Shown: positions 52,347-57,090 of the stretch, one piece after another
Layout of the letters: each line of letters opens with the position of its first letter
How positions within the stretch are numbered: the first letter of the stretch is position 1
Assembly: GCF_005497185.1 (NCBI RefSeq)
Contig: NZ_RJTN01000024.1
Coordinates: forward strand, 1-64,000
From: Pectobacterium polonicum
GTDB taxonomy: Bacteria; Pseudomonadota; Gammaproteobacteria; Enterobacterales; Enterobacteriaceae
Direction: 5' to 3'
DNA length: 64,000 bases
The notes under the pieces: model-generated
Databases searched by the model: none
Told to the model about the DNA's origin: nothing
What the model saw: the letters and a program-made list of their open reading frames with translations, nothing else
Made by a program: the position numbers and the translations under genes

Positions 52347-52922
52347 TTAAATTTTAAGGAAATTATCCAAAAGCTGATGTCCTTGCTGGCTGAGGATACT
52401 CTCAGGATGAAACTGTACGCCTTCCAGCGGCAACGAGCGGTGACGGATTCCCATAACCTCGTCACGCTTCCCTTCATATTCGCTCCAGGCGGTAACCTCA
52501 AAACAATCGGGTAGCGAAGCGGGATCAATGATGAGCGAATGATAGCGGGTAACCGTCAAAGGCTGAGCCAACCCGGTGAAAACACCCGTATTGTTGTGCA
52601 CAATTGCTGAAGTTTTGCCATGCATCACCTGCCGCGCCCGCACCACCCGCGCGCCAAACGCTTGCCCCATCGCCTGATGACCAAGACACACGCCAAGAAT
52701 AGGCAACTTATCAGCAAAGTGACGAATGGCAGCCAGTGAAATGCCCGCCTCGTCTGGCGTACAGGGGCCGGGTGAAATCACCAACCGCTCGGGCGCAAGC
52801 CGTTCAATCTCACGCAGTGTCAGTTCATCATTACGCTTCACCACGACCTGTGCGCCAAGCTCACAAAAGTATTGATAAAGGTTGTAGGTAAAGGAGTCGT
52901 AGTTATCGATAATTAGCAGCAT
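52347..52922 (-). CDS. pabA: Aminodeoxychorismate synthase, glutamine amidotransferase subunit
   Basis: PabA supplies ammonia from glutamine to PabB to make 4-amino-4-deoxychorismate, the precursor of folate. The class I amidotransferase triad is present: C79 (LGVCLGHQ), H172 and E174 (QFHPES). The 191-aa length fits (E. coli 187). It is 121 bp upstream of argD in the same orientation. Confidence 0.96.
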
Positions 52923-53200
52923 ATTGACTTAATGTTATGATAAATATTAGTTATTTAAATTAATCCTACTCTTGATATCCACAATAATACCCGAAAATTA
53001 TGTCAATGCGTTTTTCATAGACACATGCAACGCTGATTATTGTATCTGTATGTGCAGCGAGAAGGATGGCGAGAGGTCGATCTTAGTTGCATCCAAAGGC
53101 GTGTTAGAGGGAAGGAAGCAGAGATTCCGAGTTAAAGGTGCAGAATCTCTACTTTAGTTAGATATTGATTAGATTAACAAGCGCGATCTATTAACGCTAG
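52923..53200. other. Intergenic region at the start of the accessory block
   Basis: No convincing gene. A 61-codon frame (52972-53157, TTG start) has no recognisable similarity and no clear ribosome-binding site. It contains a short inverted repeat AGAGATTC/GAATCTCT (53120-53127 with 53143-53150). The region marks the change from conserved pabA to accessory, AT-rich sequence; E. coli has fic-yhfG-ppiA at this place. Confidence 0.5.
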
Positions 53201-53875
53201 CTAAGCGTCATCCAAGATAAAGGTTATAGGCACCCGATAAAAACCATCAACAAAATCAGGTCGTAGTTCAGCAATTGAGGTGTCTGACTTTGCCCCATAT
53301 AGCTCGATTGCTTTATCTGTCAGGGTAGTCGTTGTTACTGCTTCTTTCGCACTCGATTGGAATACACCGATCGAGGATAAATAATCCAACGGGAAATTAA
53401 ACCGATAGACGCCAAATTTATTCCCATCTCTAATGACAATATCCATAGGATTCATCACCTTTTTTCCTTTTAACGACAATTTAGGAATGTAGGTGATGAA
53501 CTCGACAGGTGTTTCATCTCTAATTTCGGCCCACGTTAGATTGCAACTCTCAGTCGCAGAAGCAAGCTTTCCTTTGGATTTGAAAGCATCAGAAAGGCAT
53601 AACCCCACTTTGCTTCCGGTTAAAGCCTCCATCGTAGACTTACGGATAACATTAATAATAACTTTTACAGCACTCTGTTGTGTTGATTTAACAGAATTGC
53701 ATTGACCTTTTTTAAATATAAACTTATCCAATCGTTCATTAATATCATTTACGTCATTAATTAACACTGCATTTATTACTATAGGTCGCTCGCCAGTTTC
53801 ACTATTTACTCTATATGCCAAGCTACAAAGGCTGAATGCAACACCGGATAAAATAAAATTCCTTCTGCTAACCAT
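53201..53875 (-). CDS. Tat-leader exported protein of unknown family
   Basis: I do not recognise this 224-aa protein. It begins MVSRRNFILSG, a twin-arginine (S-R-R-N-F) export motif followed by a hydrophobic stretch to about residue 21, so it is probably exported folded to the periplasm. The mature part has no known catalytic motif; its cysteines are C59, C93 and C111. The C17 in the leader lacks a lipobox. The protein is likely compact alpha/beta. It starts 12 bp after the ferredoxin stop, so the two are probably cotranscribed and could be functionally linked. Confidence 0.75.
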   Translation of the reverse strand: MVSRRNFILSGVAFSLCSLAYRVNSETGERPIVINAVLINDVNDINERLDKFIFKKGQCNSVKSTQQSAVKVIINVIRKSTMEALTGSKVGLCLSDAFKSKGKLASATESCNLTWAEIRDETPVEFITYIPKLSLKGKKVMNPMDIVIRDGNKFGVYRFNFPLDYLSSIGVFQSSAKEAVTTTTLTDKAIELYGAKSDTSIAELRPDFVDGFYRVPITFILDDA

Positions 53876-53887
53876 TATTCAATCCTC

Positions 53888-54184
53888 TTACTCAACCAAA
53901 TCAGCTTCAGCATGGGACATTATTGTCATATCTGATGTAGGATATGTTGTACAAGATAATATAAATGTTCCTCTCTGGGTTCCATCAAGGAAAGATTGAT
54001 CGCTATCATCATAGCTTCCAAAGATCACCCGACATGCACATGAAGAACACGCCCCAGCCCGGCAACTGTAAGGAAGATCTACTCCGGCCTCTTCAGCAGC
54101 ATCAAGTATATATTTATCATCAGGGCACATTATTTCTTGGGTACCGCCGCTGCAACTCAAAATCCGTATCTTGTATGAAGCCAT
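53888..54184 (-). CDS. Plant-type [2Fe-2S] ferredoxin
   Basis: A 98-aa ferredoxin of the chloroplast/cyanobacterial type. The cluster ligands are C41, C46, C49 and C78 in the pattern C-x4-C-x2-C-x28-C ([14 protein letters not shown] ... [12 protein letters not shown]). It is acidic, with the DQSFLD and DLVE-like tail typical of photosynthetic electron-transfer ferredoxins. It is unlike the isc-type Fdx and unlike the bfd product of this window. It has no signal peptide. Its partner reductase is not encoded nearby. GGATGG lies before ATG 54184. Pectobacteria are known to import plant ferredoxin as an iron source and to make ferredoxin-domain bacteriocins (pectocins M); this gene lacks a toxin domain. 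Confidence 0.88.
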
Positions 54185-54313
54185 GACTCATACCATCCTT
54201 TTAAATTTACTAATTGAATTTCTCAACAAAAGAATTAAAAAATTCATGAAAATGAATATAAAAAATTAACAAGATTATTTTTTAAAAGACAGTGACAAAA
54301 AACAATTTTAAAA

Positions 54314-54649
54314 TTAGAAATCACACATCGCAACGCCACCTTTACATTGTGCAAGACAACTATGAAAGTTCGTACTTCCATAATCACCAGGCATATCTAA
54401 TAGGTATGAACATTCAGCTATGCATCTATCGGTTAGGGTTCGTGAATATTTTTCCTCGACAATAATTTCATTCGATTTTTTATTTTTAACAATACAAATA
54501 TTTTGATTTTGTGTCTGTATAAAATTTACTTTCCCATTAATAAGATAAATAGGAAGGGGTTTATCATCTGAACTGATCGCTTTACTAGAAAATAAAACAA
54601 ACGACAAAATAAATGGAGATAATACCAGCAAGGTAGGGGATTTTAACAT
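54314..54649 (-). CDS. Secreted small protein with twin CX3C cysteine motif
   Basis: Unrecognised 111-aa protein. Residues about 4-24 form a signal peptide (LLVLSPFILSFVLFSSKA); the mature part has six cysteines (C52, C76, C80, C98, C102, C109). C76-x3-C80 and C98-x3-C102 form a twin CX3C pattern like that of disulfide-locked helical hairpins. Its strong AT bias resembles its neighbours. AGGA lies upstream of ATG 54649. It is followed by 130 bp of AT-rich sequence before the ferredoxin gene, so it may or may not be in the same transcript. Confidence 0.65.
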   Translation of the reverse strand: MLKSPTLLVLSPFILSFVLFSSKAISSDDKPLPIYLINGKVNFIQTQNQNICIVKNKKSNEIIVEEKYSRTLTDRCIAECSYLLDMPGDYGSTNFHSCLAQCKGGVAMCDF

Positions 54650-54886
54650 AACTCAATCCTTTAAAAGTATGCTAATTAATGTTTCTAATACTTGTACTTG
54701 GTTCTTTATATTCCAATAACCAAGATAATTTAGGCAACAAATCCATTACATTCATTGCCAAAATCTAATTAATACTAAAATAATGAGTAAGGAAATCAAG
54801 TTTTTTTTCTTTTCTCTATTATGCACCATTTAAAAACCAAAATAGCACGCTACAATAACAAAAAAGAAAAAATAACAACAAAAAAA

Positions 54887-55138
54887 TTACACATCCGCAT
54901 CCTTATTTACATAAACCGTGAAGCCATCTGGTTTTAAATCTGGATGGTCAATTGAAATATCATTTATAACCTTACCCGTTAACGTATAAATCAAGTGCCC
55001 GGCAACATGCCGACACTTTTCATATTCCTCCTGAGGCAAAGATCTTTTCAGCACGACTAATTCGGCTTTGATTTGCTCGATAAGAACAATTGATTTTTCA
55101 ATTAAATTTTCTGCAATTTTTTTATCTGAGATGAACAT
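54887..55138 (-). CDS. Hypothetical 83-aa protein
   Basis: I do not recognise this protein. It is small and soluble in appearance. Residues 1-36 are a likely amphipathic helix or coiled-coil (KKIAENLIEKSIVLIEQIKAELVVLK). A middle segment has EEYEKCRHVAGHLIYTLTG, and the acidic tail ends NKDADV. There is no signal peptide. AGGA precedes ATG 55138. It is the first gene of the leftward cassette and lies 827 bp from pelA, which is divergent from it. It could be a cytoplasmic regulator or immunity-like partner, but nothing in the sequence proves it. Confidence 0.6.
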   Translation of the reverse strand: MFISDKKIAENLIEKSIVLIEQIKAELVVLKRSLPQEEYEKCRHVAGHLIYTLTGKVINDISIDHPDLKPDGFTVYVNKDADV

Positions 55139-55622
55139 CTTACGATCCTAGTAGCGTGTATGAAAATGGCTTTCATGCATTCTAATAATGCTACCTTTCG
55201 TAAACTTCATGGTCAAGAAAAATAATTTGTCAACAAAAAATATGTACGTAAAATATTTACACAGATAAACGACAGTCGCATATCAGTGTTCTCTCTTGTT
55301 TGACGCATCGCAGTGTCTGCCGATATATTCAAATATAAAATTTCTCAATCAATAGAGTGAAATAGGTTAGATAGATTTTTACTGAGTTAAAATATAAAGA
55401 TAGCAAGATTATAATTACACAGATAACAAATTATTTATTTCTGTGAAAACTTCATAATTAATAGGTAATATTTATTACTATCCCCTATAGAAACGACTCT
55501 CCTGAAACTATTTTTAACAAAAAAAATAATAACTAAAAATCCCTCATGAATTAATTATGTTTTTTTAAATTGGCAGGCTATCCGACGGGACTTATCTTTC
55601 TCATCAATATTTATTTTTAACT

Positions 55623-55638
55623 TTTGACGGCGATCACA
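55623..55638 (+). promoter_or_regulatory. CRP-like site upstream of pelA
   Basis: TTTGA-N6-TCACA matches the CRP half-site consensus TGTGA-N6-TCACA at 9 of 10 positions. It is about 330 bp upstream of the pelA ATG, in the same relative sequence context as the pelC site (59045-59060). Pel genes of soft-rot bacteria are CRP-activated. Confidence 0.55.
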
Positions 55639-55888
55639 ATTGCTATCGAGTGAATAAAGCCTAGAGATGAAACAGGTAAAAATAAAGAATAAAAATTCAA
55701 ATAAAAACACAAAACATTGATTTAAATGAATTTAAATGGAAATTAGTTTCTATTTAAAAGTAGTAAACGCAAGTCAAGCCAACTCTCCTCTGTTATTTAA
55801 TTAATATATTTATCGCCCCATCTTGTATTGTTTATTTTTTATGTTAACACTTAGCTCGGCTTTATAGACAAACCTTAATTTCATTTTT

Positions 55889-55909
55889 GTTGAAACAGCC
55901 TTTTTATTA
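55889..55909 (+). promoter_or_regulatory. KdgR-box-like element upstream of pelA
   Basis: TTGTTGAAACAGCCTTTTTA contains TGAAACA, the left part of the KdgR consensus, followed by a T-rich right half that matches only partly. The same TGAAACA (or TGAAAAA) occurs at a similar distance from the ATG in pelB (57555-57561) and pelC (59312-59318). KdgR is the known repressor of pectinolysis genes, relieved by KDG. Confidence 0.4.
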
Positions 55910-55965
55910 CACAGGGTGTGTAGTGATAAATACCCAGAAAAATTCTATGTCAAGGAGAGTACACA

Positions 55966-57090
55966 ATGAAATACCTACTGCCTTCTGCAGCCGCTGGGCT
56001 GTTACTGCTTGCAGCCCAACCAACAATGGCAGCAAATACGGGAGGTTACGCCACCACTGACGGCGGCGACGTTTCCGGTGCTGTGAAAAAAACCGCACGC
56101 TCTCTGCAAGATATCGTCGATATCATTGAGGCAGCGAAAAAAGATTCAAACGGTAAAGCAGTCAAGGGGGGAGCCTACCCGCTCGTGATTACCTATAACG
56201 GTAATGAAGATGCACTGATCAAAGCCGCTGAAGCCAATATCTGTGGCCAATGGAGCAAAGATCCGCGCGGCGTAGAAATCAAAGAATTCACCAAAGGGAT
56301 CACCATCCTCGGTACTAATGGATCTTCCGCTAACTTTGGGATCTGGGTGGTTAACTCTTCCAACGTTGTCGTACGTAATATGCGTTTCGGTTATATGCCG
56401 GGCGGCGCAAAAGATGGCGATGCAATCCGTATTGATAACTCACCGAACGTCTGGATCGATCACAACGAAATCTTCGCGAAGAACTTTGAATGTGCCGGTA
56501 CGCCAGATAACGACACCACGTTTGAATCGGCTGTCGATATCAAGAAAGCCTCAACCAACGTCACGGTATCGTACAACTACATCCACGGCGTGAAAAAAGT
56601 AGGTTTAAGCGGTTCAAGCAACACGGATACGGGTCGTAATCTGACTTACCATCACAATATTTACAGCGATGTTAACTCACGTCTGCCGCTGCAACGTGGT
56701 GGTCAGGTGCATGCTTATAACAACCTGTATGACGGTATCAAAAGTTCAGGCTTTAACGTCCGCCAGAAAGGGATTGCCCTGATCGAAAGCAACTGGTTTG
56801 AAAATGCACTCAACCCAGTAACTGCACGTAATGACGATTCCAACTTCGGTACTTGGGAATTGCGTAACAACAACATCACCAGCCCGTCTGATTTTGCTAA
56901 ATACAACATCACCTGGGGTAAACCGTCCACACCGCACATTAATGCAGATGACTGGAAAAGCACGGGCAAATTCCCTGCCGTCCCGTATAGCTATTCCCCT
57001 GTTTCCGCACAGTGCGTGAAGGATAAACTGGCGAACTATGCTGGCGTAGGGAAAAACCTGGCCGTATTGACAGCAGCCAACTGTAAATAA
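55966..57090 (+). CDS. pelA: Pectate lyase PelA, PL1 family, extracellular
   Basis: Pectate lyase cleaves polygalacturonate by calcium-dependent beta-elimination and macerates plant tissue. The 374-aa precursor has a 22-residue PelB-type leader (MKYLLPSAAAG..., cleaved after TMA), then the parallel beta-helix. Calcium ligands lie at D150/D152 (KDGDAIRID) and D191; the catalytic region VNSRLPLQRGG gives R239, P241 and R244. WIDHNE is at 163-168. Cysteines C93-C176 and C350-C373 should form disulfides. The enzyme should be exported by Sec and secreted by the type II Out system. AAGGAGAG lies just upstream of the ATG. About 35 positions differ from PelB by eye, but the leader and some patches are PelC-like. 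The symbol follows the P. atrosepticum order and is an assignment by position. Confidence 0.93.
   Translation: MKYLLPSAAAGLLLLAAQPTMAANTGGYATTDGGDVSGAVKKTARSLQDIVDIIEAAKKDSNGKAVKGGAYPLVITYNGNEDALIKAAEANICGQWSKDPRGVEIKEFTKGITILGTNGSSANFGIWVVNSSNVVVRNMRFGYMPGGAKDGDAIRIDNSPNVWIDHNEIFAKNFECAGTPDNDTTFESAVDIKKASTNVTVSYNYIHGVKKVGLSGSSNTDTGRNLTYHHNIYSDVNSRLPLQRGGQVHAYNNLYDGIKSSGFNVRQKGIALIESNWFENALNPVTARNDDSNFGTWELRNNNITSPSDFAKYNITWGKPSTPHINADDWKSTGKFPAVPYSYSPVSAQCVKDKLANYAGVGKNLAVLTAANCK

Follow-up and report, generated by a model that had tools for sequence, protein, structure and literature searches.

A FerE-type ferredoxin gene paired with a Tat-leader protein gene in Pectobacterium: a possible envelope redox module

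The window analysed here is a 64,000-nucleotide stretch of the Pectobacterium polonicum genome (GCF_005497185.1, contig NZ_RJTN01000024.1, positions 1 to 64,000), and our subject is a small gene cassette within it, in which a gene for a plant-type ferredoxin precedes, by 12 base pairs (bp), a gene for a protein with a twin-arginine translocation (Tat) leader. A sequence-only reading had described these two open reading frames (ORFs), their spacing and the C-x4-C-x2-C-x28-C ligand pattern of the ferredoxin, all of which we confirmed; two linked upstream genes lie outside the segment it covered. All four genes are on the minus strand, and are transcribed in the order 83-amino-acid (aa) protein, Cys-rich protein, ferredoxin, Tat-leader protein. 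The features are the following, where pLDDT denotes the predicted local distance difference test score.

53201-53875, minus strand: Tat-leader protein, 224 aa, one invariant Cys (C93); no family matched
53888-54184, minus strand: plant-type [2Fe-2S] ferredoxin, 98 aa, without leader, extra Cys51; assigned by TIGR02008, PF00111 and the tree
54314-54649, minus strand: Cys-rich protein, 111 aa, Sec-like leader judged by eye; no family matched
54887-55138, minus strand: acidic 83-aa protein, modelled as a two-helix hairpin (pLDDT 70.8)
55160-55176, no strand: exact inverted repeat ATGAAA-N5-TTTCAT (17 bp), 21 bp upstream of the 83-aa gene

The left neighbour (52347-52922) is presumably a glutamine-amidotransferase gene of the pabA/trpG type, and we take the genes at 55966, 57634 and 59392, on the opposite strand to the cassette, to encode pectate lyases (pel) from their sequence. 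The cassette occupies an AT-rich block, as had been noted before, the G+C content being 0.27-0.41 in 500-base windows from 53000 to 55999 and about 0.5 to the left.

The ferredoxin has Cys at 41, 46, 49 and 78, which is the full plant-type ligand set, and scored 124 bits against TIGR02008 fdx_plant (cut-off 81.15) and E = 7.3e-21 against Pfam Fer2 (PF00111). By ligands and family score, the 98-aa protein is thus predicted to be a plant-type [2Fe-2S] ferredoxin. Among solved structures its best match was the chloroplast ferredoxin 4zho (120 bits), with pectocin M1 at 97 and pectocin M2 at 87 bits.

The Tat-leader protein begins with MVSRRNFI followed by a hydrophobic stretch (by eye), and the two Arg and the Phe are invariant in all six aligned relatives, as SRRNF or SRRDF in five and KRRQF in the sixth, from genome G211. 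The 224-aa protein fits a Tat substrate by motif and hydrophobic stretch, and its export is predicted. Its family had not been recognised from the letters alone, and Pfam, NCBIfam and further libraries likewise gave no assignment: no Pfam family was reached at E ≤ 10, the single NCBIfam match (E 0.048) was far below its cut-off, and no enzyme family was matched in the libraries searched. C93 is the only Cys invariant across the six proteins, and the structure model had a pLDDT of 37.6. Relation to intradiol dioxygenases was considered and rejected, since hhalign against three dioxygenase-family sequences gave a probability of 1% over 20 columns and the six-row alignment contains no invariant His; this concerns sequence relation, and the fold may still be common. 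His residues are, we assume, the conserved iron ligands of these enzymes. Pfam and NCBIfam scans of the pair found no toxin domain, in agreement with the sequence-only reading.

We then compared 25 genomes of the genus Pectobacterium. The Tat-leader protein was found in six, and in all six the best ferredoxin match is the immediately preceding gene of that strand and belongs to the type described below, at a spacing of 12 bp (three genomes), 3 bp (two) or 30 bp (one). Five of the cassettes share the site between pabA and pel, where identity of the Tat-leader protein to that of the window is 95, 87, 82 and 82%, and the sixth, in G211, lies between hemN and glnG. The window and G211 copies are strongly diverged (57-59% identity for the ferredoxin and 31-33% for the Tat-leader protein). 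The G211 order is Cys-rich, 83-aa, ferredoxin, Tat-leader and a DsbA-like protein, with gaps of at most 30 bp or overlaps; the 83-aa gene overlaps the ferredoxin start by 4 bp. The five pabA-pel cassettes are probably one lineage, which leaves about two independent cases. Nevertheless, accident is unlikely because the same neighbours occur at two sites and in spite of strong divergence, and this lasting adjacency suggests that the ferredoxin and the Tat-leader protein work together. The pair had been proposed to be a small redox or export module. The two genes were found together and not always apart, and no unrelated enzyme family was matched by the Tat-leader protein; on these grounds, the proposal stands.

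Pairwise ratios of nonsynonymous to synonymous substitution (dN/dS) were calculated for the five close genomes (10 pairs per gene). The values were 0.13-0.20 for the Tat gene and 0.04-0.53 for the ferredoxin gene. The Cys-rich gene gave 0.24-0.47 and the 83-aa gene 0.04-0.83, where the top value rests on a pair with a dS of 0.02. The neighbouring genes pabA and the first pel gave 0.02-0.13.

The position of the G211 cassette connects it with FerE. The gene order there is dsbA, polA, engB, yihI, hemN, cassette, glnG, in which we presume the names of polA, engB, yihI, hemN and glnG and recognise dsbA by its CPHC motif. FerE, a plant ferredoxin-like protein of P. wasabiae SCC3193, is linked to oxidative-stress tolerance and in planta fitness according to the available part of PMC3486870, which also places it as W5S_4691 in the island GI_55 (W5S_4688-4695) and dsbA in the island GI_56 (W5S_4700-4704). 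The four W5S numbers between the islands fit hemN, yihI, engB and polA, so that FerE, like the G211 copy, would lie between hemN and glnG and four genes from dsbA. G211 therefore most likely holds ferE itself, as judged by gene order and numbering. Because this divergent copy sits at the numbered FerE position, we label the group FerE-type: the window ferredoxin is a FerE-type homologue at another site, its membership being judged by position and homology. Both the FerE-site ferredoxin of G211 and the window ferredoxin carry the extra Cys51, whereas the window copy differs in lying at the pabA-pel site and in having no DsbA-like gene. FerE is reportedly under quorum-sensing control, by the title of a 2008 article of Sjoblom. 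That several Pectobacterium species have plant-type ferredoxin genes was already known in 2012 (PMC3302902, in the part available), and all P. parmentieri genomes tested in 2018 had a 'plant ferredoxin-like protein' according to the accessible text of PMC6192338.

What is new is that Cys51 and the Tat neighbour separate the FerE type, in six of the 25 genomes, from bacteriocin-related ferredoxins. A tree was built from eight plant, algal, cyanobacterial and cyanophage sequences and 26 ferredoxins of the genus, these being the ones readable among the 34 matches of the ferredoxin search. The six FerE-type ferredoxins grouped in one clade (support 96/91) and the bacteriocin and orphan ferredoxins in a separate one (93/89), while the support for placing this clade relative to the plant and cyanobacterial sequences was low (41/57). 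Cys51, two residues past the third ligand, was present in all six FerE-type sequences and in none of the 28 others, which have Ala (20 other Pectobacterium sequences) or Gly (the 8 outside sequences) in this column. Pectocins M1, M2 and P resemble the window protein in having a plant-type ferredoxin domain and in belonging to the same genus, but the pectocin-like sequences compared have Ala in place of Cys51 and pectocins carry a C-terminal toxin domain. The window ORF ends after the ferredoxin domain (98 aa), without such a domain, and falls in a separate clade; its identification as a pectocin was accordingly rejected. The orphan ferredoxins of the genus (111-129 aa) are single-domain proteins, as is the window ferredoxin, but they have a C-terminal extension and no Tat neighbour, and cluster with the bacteriocin ferredoxins.

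The other proteins of the cassette are also unassigned. The Cys-rich and 83-aa proteins matched no Pfam family at E ≤ 10, and none of their NCBIfam matches came near the cut-off. The Cys-rich protein of the window has six cysteines; two C-x3-C motifs and the final Cys are kept in all six copies, and strong-scoring matches were confined to the same six genomes as the Tat-leader protein. The fifth gene of G211 encodes 213 aa with a leader (by eye) and a CGKC motif, and gave weak matches to PF13098 Thioredoxin_2 (E 0.018, below the cut-off) and to a thiol:disulfide interchange protein in the PDB (E 0.035). This DsbA-like gene was found in G211 alone of the 25 genomes, at the FerE site, and is absent from the window copy.

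The 83-aa protein or a relative of it was found in 12 of the 25 genomes, in six of them alongside the cassette. At pabA-pel, G204, G205 and G215 have the gene on its own. At hemN-glnG, a relative with 42-43% identity to the G211 copy stands by itself in G204, G206, G207, G217 and G218; G218 has the cassette at pabA-pel. Because it is present without the cassette in other genomes, the 83-aa protein may predate the cassette there and have a separate function.

We tentatively favour, at somewhat less than even confidence, the view that the FerE-type cassette is an envelope module for redox and thiol protection, in which the Tat-leader protein is the dedicated partner of the ferredoxin. The gene content, the pairing, the dN/dS values below 1, Cys51 and the FerE position are observed and the stress and fitness effect comes from the literature; from these we infer contact between the two proteins and action of the module in the envelope. 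The cassette would be a lineage-specific accessory gene group of Pectobacterium with the pair as its core. In the cytoplasm the ferredoxin would fold around its [2Fe-2S] cluster, and the Tat-leader protein, made straight after it and probably from the same message, would be exported folded. The Cys-rich protein, together with the DsbA-like protein at the FerE site, would act in the periplasm, and this combined redox and thiol module would help to protect the envelope from the oxidative environment of plant tissue under attack.

Proteins exported by the Tat system are folded and in many cases carry a cofactor, and some signal-less partners are taken along with them. The boldest version of the envelope module is possibly of this kind: the ferredoxin, loaded with its cluster in the cytoplasm, would be carried across the membrane by its Tat partner and serve as a periplasmic electron carrier or as a sacrificial Fe-S shield coupled to the thiol system. 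In this version, Cys51 of the ferredoxin and C93 of the Tat-leader protein could make up the contact. We consider this reading unlikely, though worth stating. In Tat hitchhiker pairs such as those of hydrogenases and formate dehydrogenases, a signal-less Fe-S protein is likewise encoded beside a Tat-leader partner; those proteins are respiratory or hydrogenase components, whereas here, judged from the genes, a small plant-type ferredoxin is paired with a 224-aa partner. For a signal-less tail-anchored ferredoxin, transport together with a Tat-dependent Fe-Fe hydrogenase has been proposed (PMC10924467, in the portion available). A narrow literature search met no precedent for a heterotrophic bacterium in which a plant-type ferredoxin, small and soluble, works outside the cytoplasm.

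Between the window and G198 the ferredoxin is 67-68% identical and the Tat-leader protein 82%; the faster divergence of the ferredoxin counts against a tight, fixed interface. A cytoplasmic function fits nearly as well, and we regard it as a realistic possibility: the ferredoxin would pass electrons from a flavin reductase to a cluster-repair or detoxifying enzyme, and the Tat-leader protein would be co-regulated with a separate job in the envelope. The ferredoxin is a complete plant-type protein with all four ligands and no leader, and the reported FerE phenotype needs no export. This explanation leaves aside, however, that the adjacency holds at two sites and down to about 33% identity of the Tat-leader protein, and that leaders were recognised by eye on the Cys-rich and DsbA-like proteins. 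In addition, the Tat-leader protein was found beside FerE-type ferredoxins only; since it occurs nowhere else in the 25 genomes, no other ferredoxin of the genus neighbours it.

A further idea, raised in the sequence-only reading, was that the ferredoxin is a decoy or partner in plant-ferredoxin traffic. It would mimic the host ferredoxin and compete for the receptor FusA, with the result that pectocins are blocked or iron is shared. Plant ferredoxin and pectocins enter Pectobacterium through a common receptor (PMC3302902, in the available part), and the bit scores given above place the window protein nearer to the chloroplast ferredoxin than to pectocins M1 and M2. The idea found no support in our data, which test it indirectly (Fus genes were not searched for), and we hold it to be improbable: the clade is distinct from the bacteriocin ferredoxins, a relative sits at the FerE locus, and FerE, the nearest characterised relative, is tied to oxidative stress in the part of PMC3486870 available. 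Moreover, a release route is not evident, and the Tat-leader, Cys-rich and DsbA-like partners would be left unexplained.

Still less probable is a remnant of a ferredoxin-delivered antibacterial system in which the 83-aa gene is an immunity gene kept after the loss of the rest. In several genomes the 83-aa gene or its relative does persist by itself at one or other of the two sites, as is often the case for orphan immunity genes. The genus also uses ferredoxin domains for bacteriocin entry (PMC3302902, same part), but in the window protein nothing follows the ferredoxin domain, and none of the proteins scanned matched a toxin family. Accidental adjacency of two unrelated accessory genes in an AT-rich variable site, to which the variability of the pabA-pel gap lends something, is hardly credible given the strongly diverged pair at a second site and the pairwise dN/dS below 1 in both genes.

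The sources, as far as available, count FerE among the virulence or fitness factors of soft-rot bacteria, and no mechanism for it was found in the literature searched, which excluded the original 2008 FerE paper. Concrete candidates for the rest of the FerE pathway are the Tat partner and the Cys-rich protein, joined at the FerE site by the DsbA-like protein; they would turn attention away from the cytoplasm and towards the envelope. If true, a ferredoxin carried by Tat would explain the protection by FerE against oxidants.

The pabA-pel gap itself is variable. It is empty in G204, and other small ORFs occupy it in G205 and G215. In the latter two (L109 2343-3009 and L108 2455-3121, respectively), these resemble a HigB/HigA toxin-antitoxin pair by eye, and their presence in place of the cassette marks the gap as a variable site for small accessory modules. 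Just upstream of the G211 cassette, stretches at L043 6087-6660 may be the remains of an insertion sequence (by eye).

The core of the inverted repeat at 55160-55176, TGAAAN5TTTCA, occurs once in the window against 0.10 expected. The repeat is only partly conserved and is missing from some relatives; it resembles what we take to be a KdgR box. A 76-aa Burkholderia ORF (L116 5989-6219) resembles the 83-aa protein (29% identity, E 0.05, including the stretch HPDLKP) and may point to a wider, unnamed family of small proteins.

Among the other ferredoxins of the genus, presumably also including ColM-type and lysozyme-type pectocins (L044, L015-L024, L028-L031), several orphan ferredoxins end in a common FFEDWQRWN tail (loci among L015-L024, L028-L031 and L044). 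In L044 (6862-7251, 10400-11254), an orphan ferredoxin gene and a pectocin gene are about 3 kb apart. Another group comprises ferredoxin-like proteins (100-110 aa) with S, D and S in place of the three clustered ligand Cys and D in place of the fourth (LTD or LSD).

L053 4932-5264, plus strand: ligand-replaced ferredoxin-like gene, same gene as L033
L037 1495-1824, minus strand: ligand-replaced ferredoxin-like gene
L025, L032, L035, L036: ligand-replaced ferredoxin-like genes

Six such sequences formed a clade with support 100/100. In L053 the gene lies between what we take to be a P2-like tail tube gene and a small gene preceding a tape-measure-like gene, and in L037 it adjoins a presumed tail tube gene. 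Proteins of the L053 and L037 type may thus be clusterless ferredoxin relatives in a contractile tail module.
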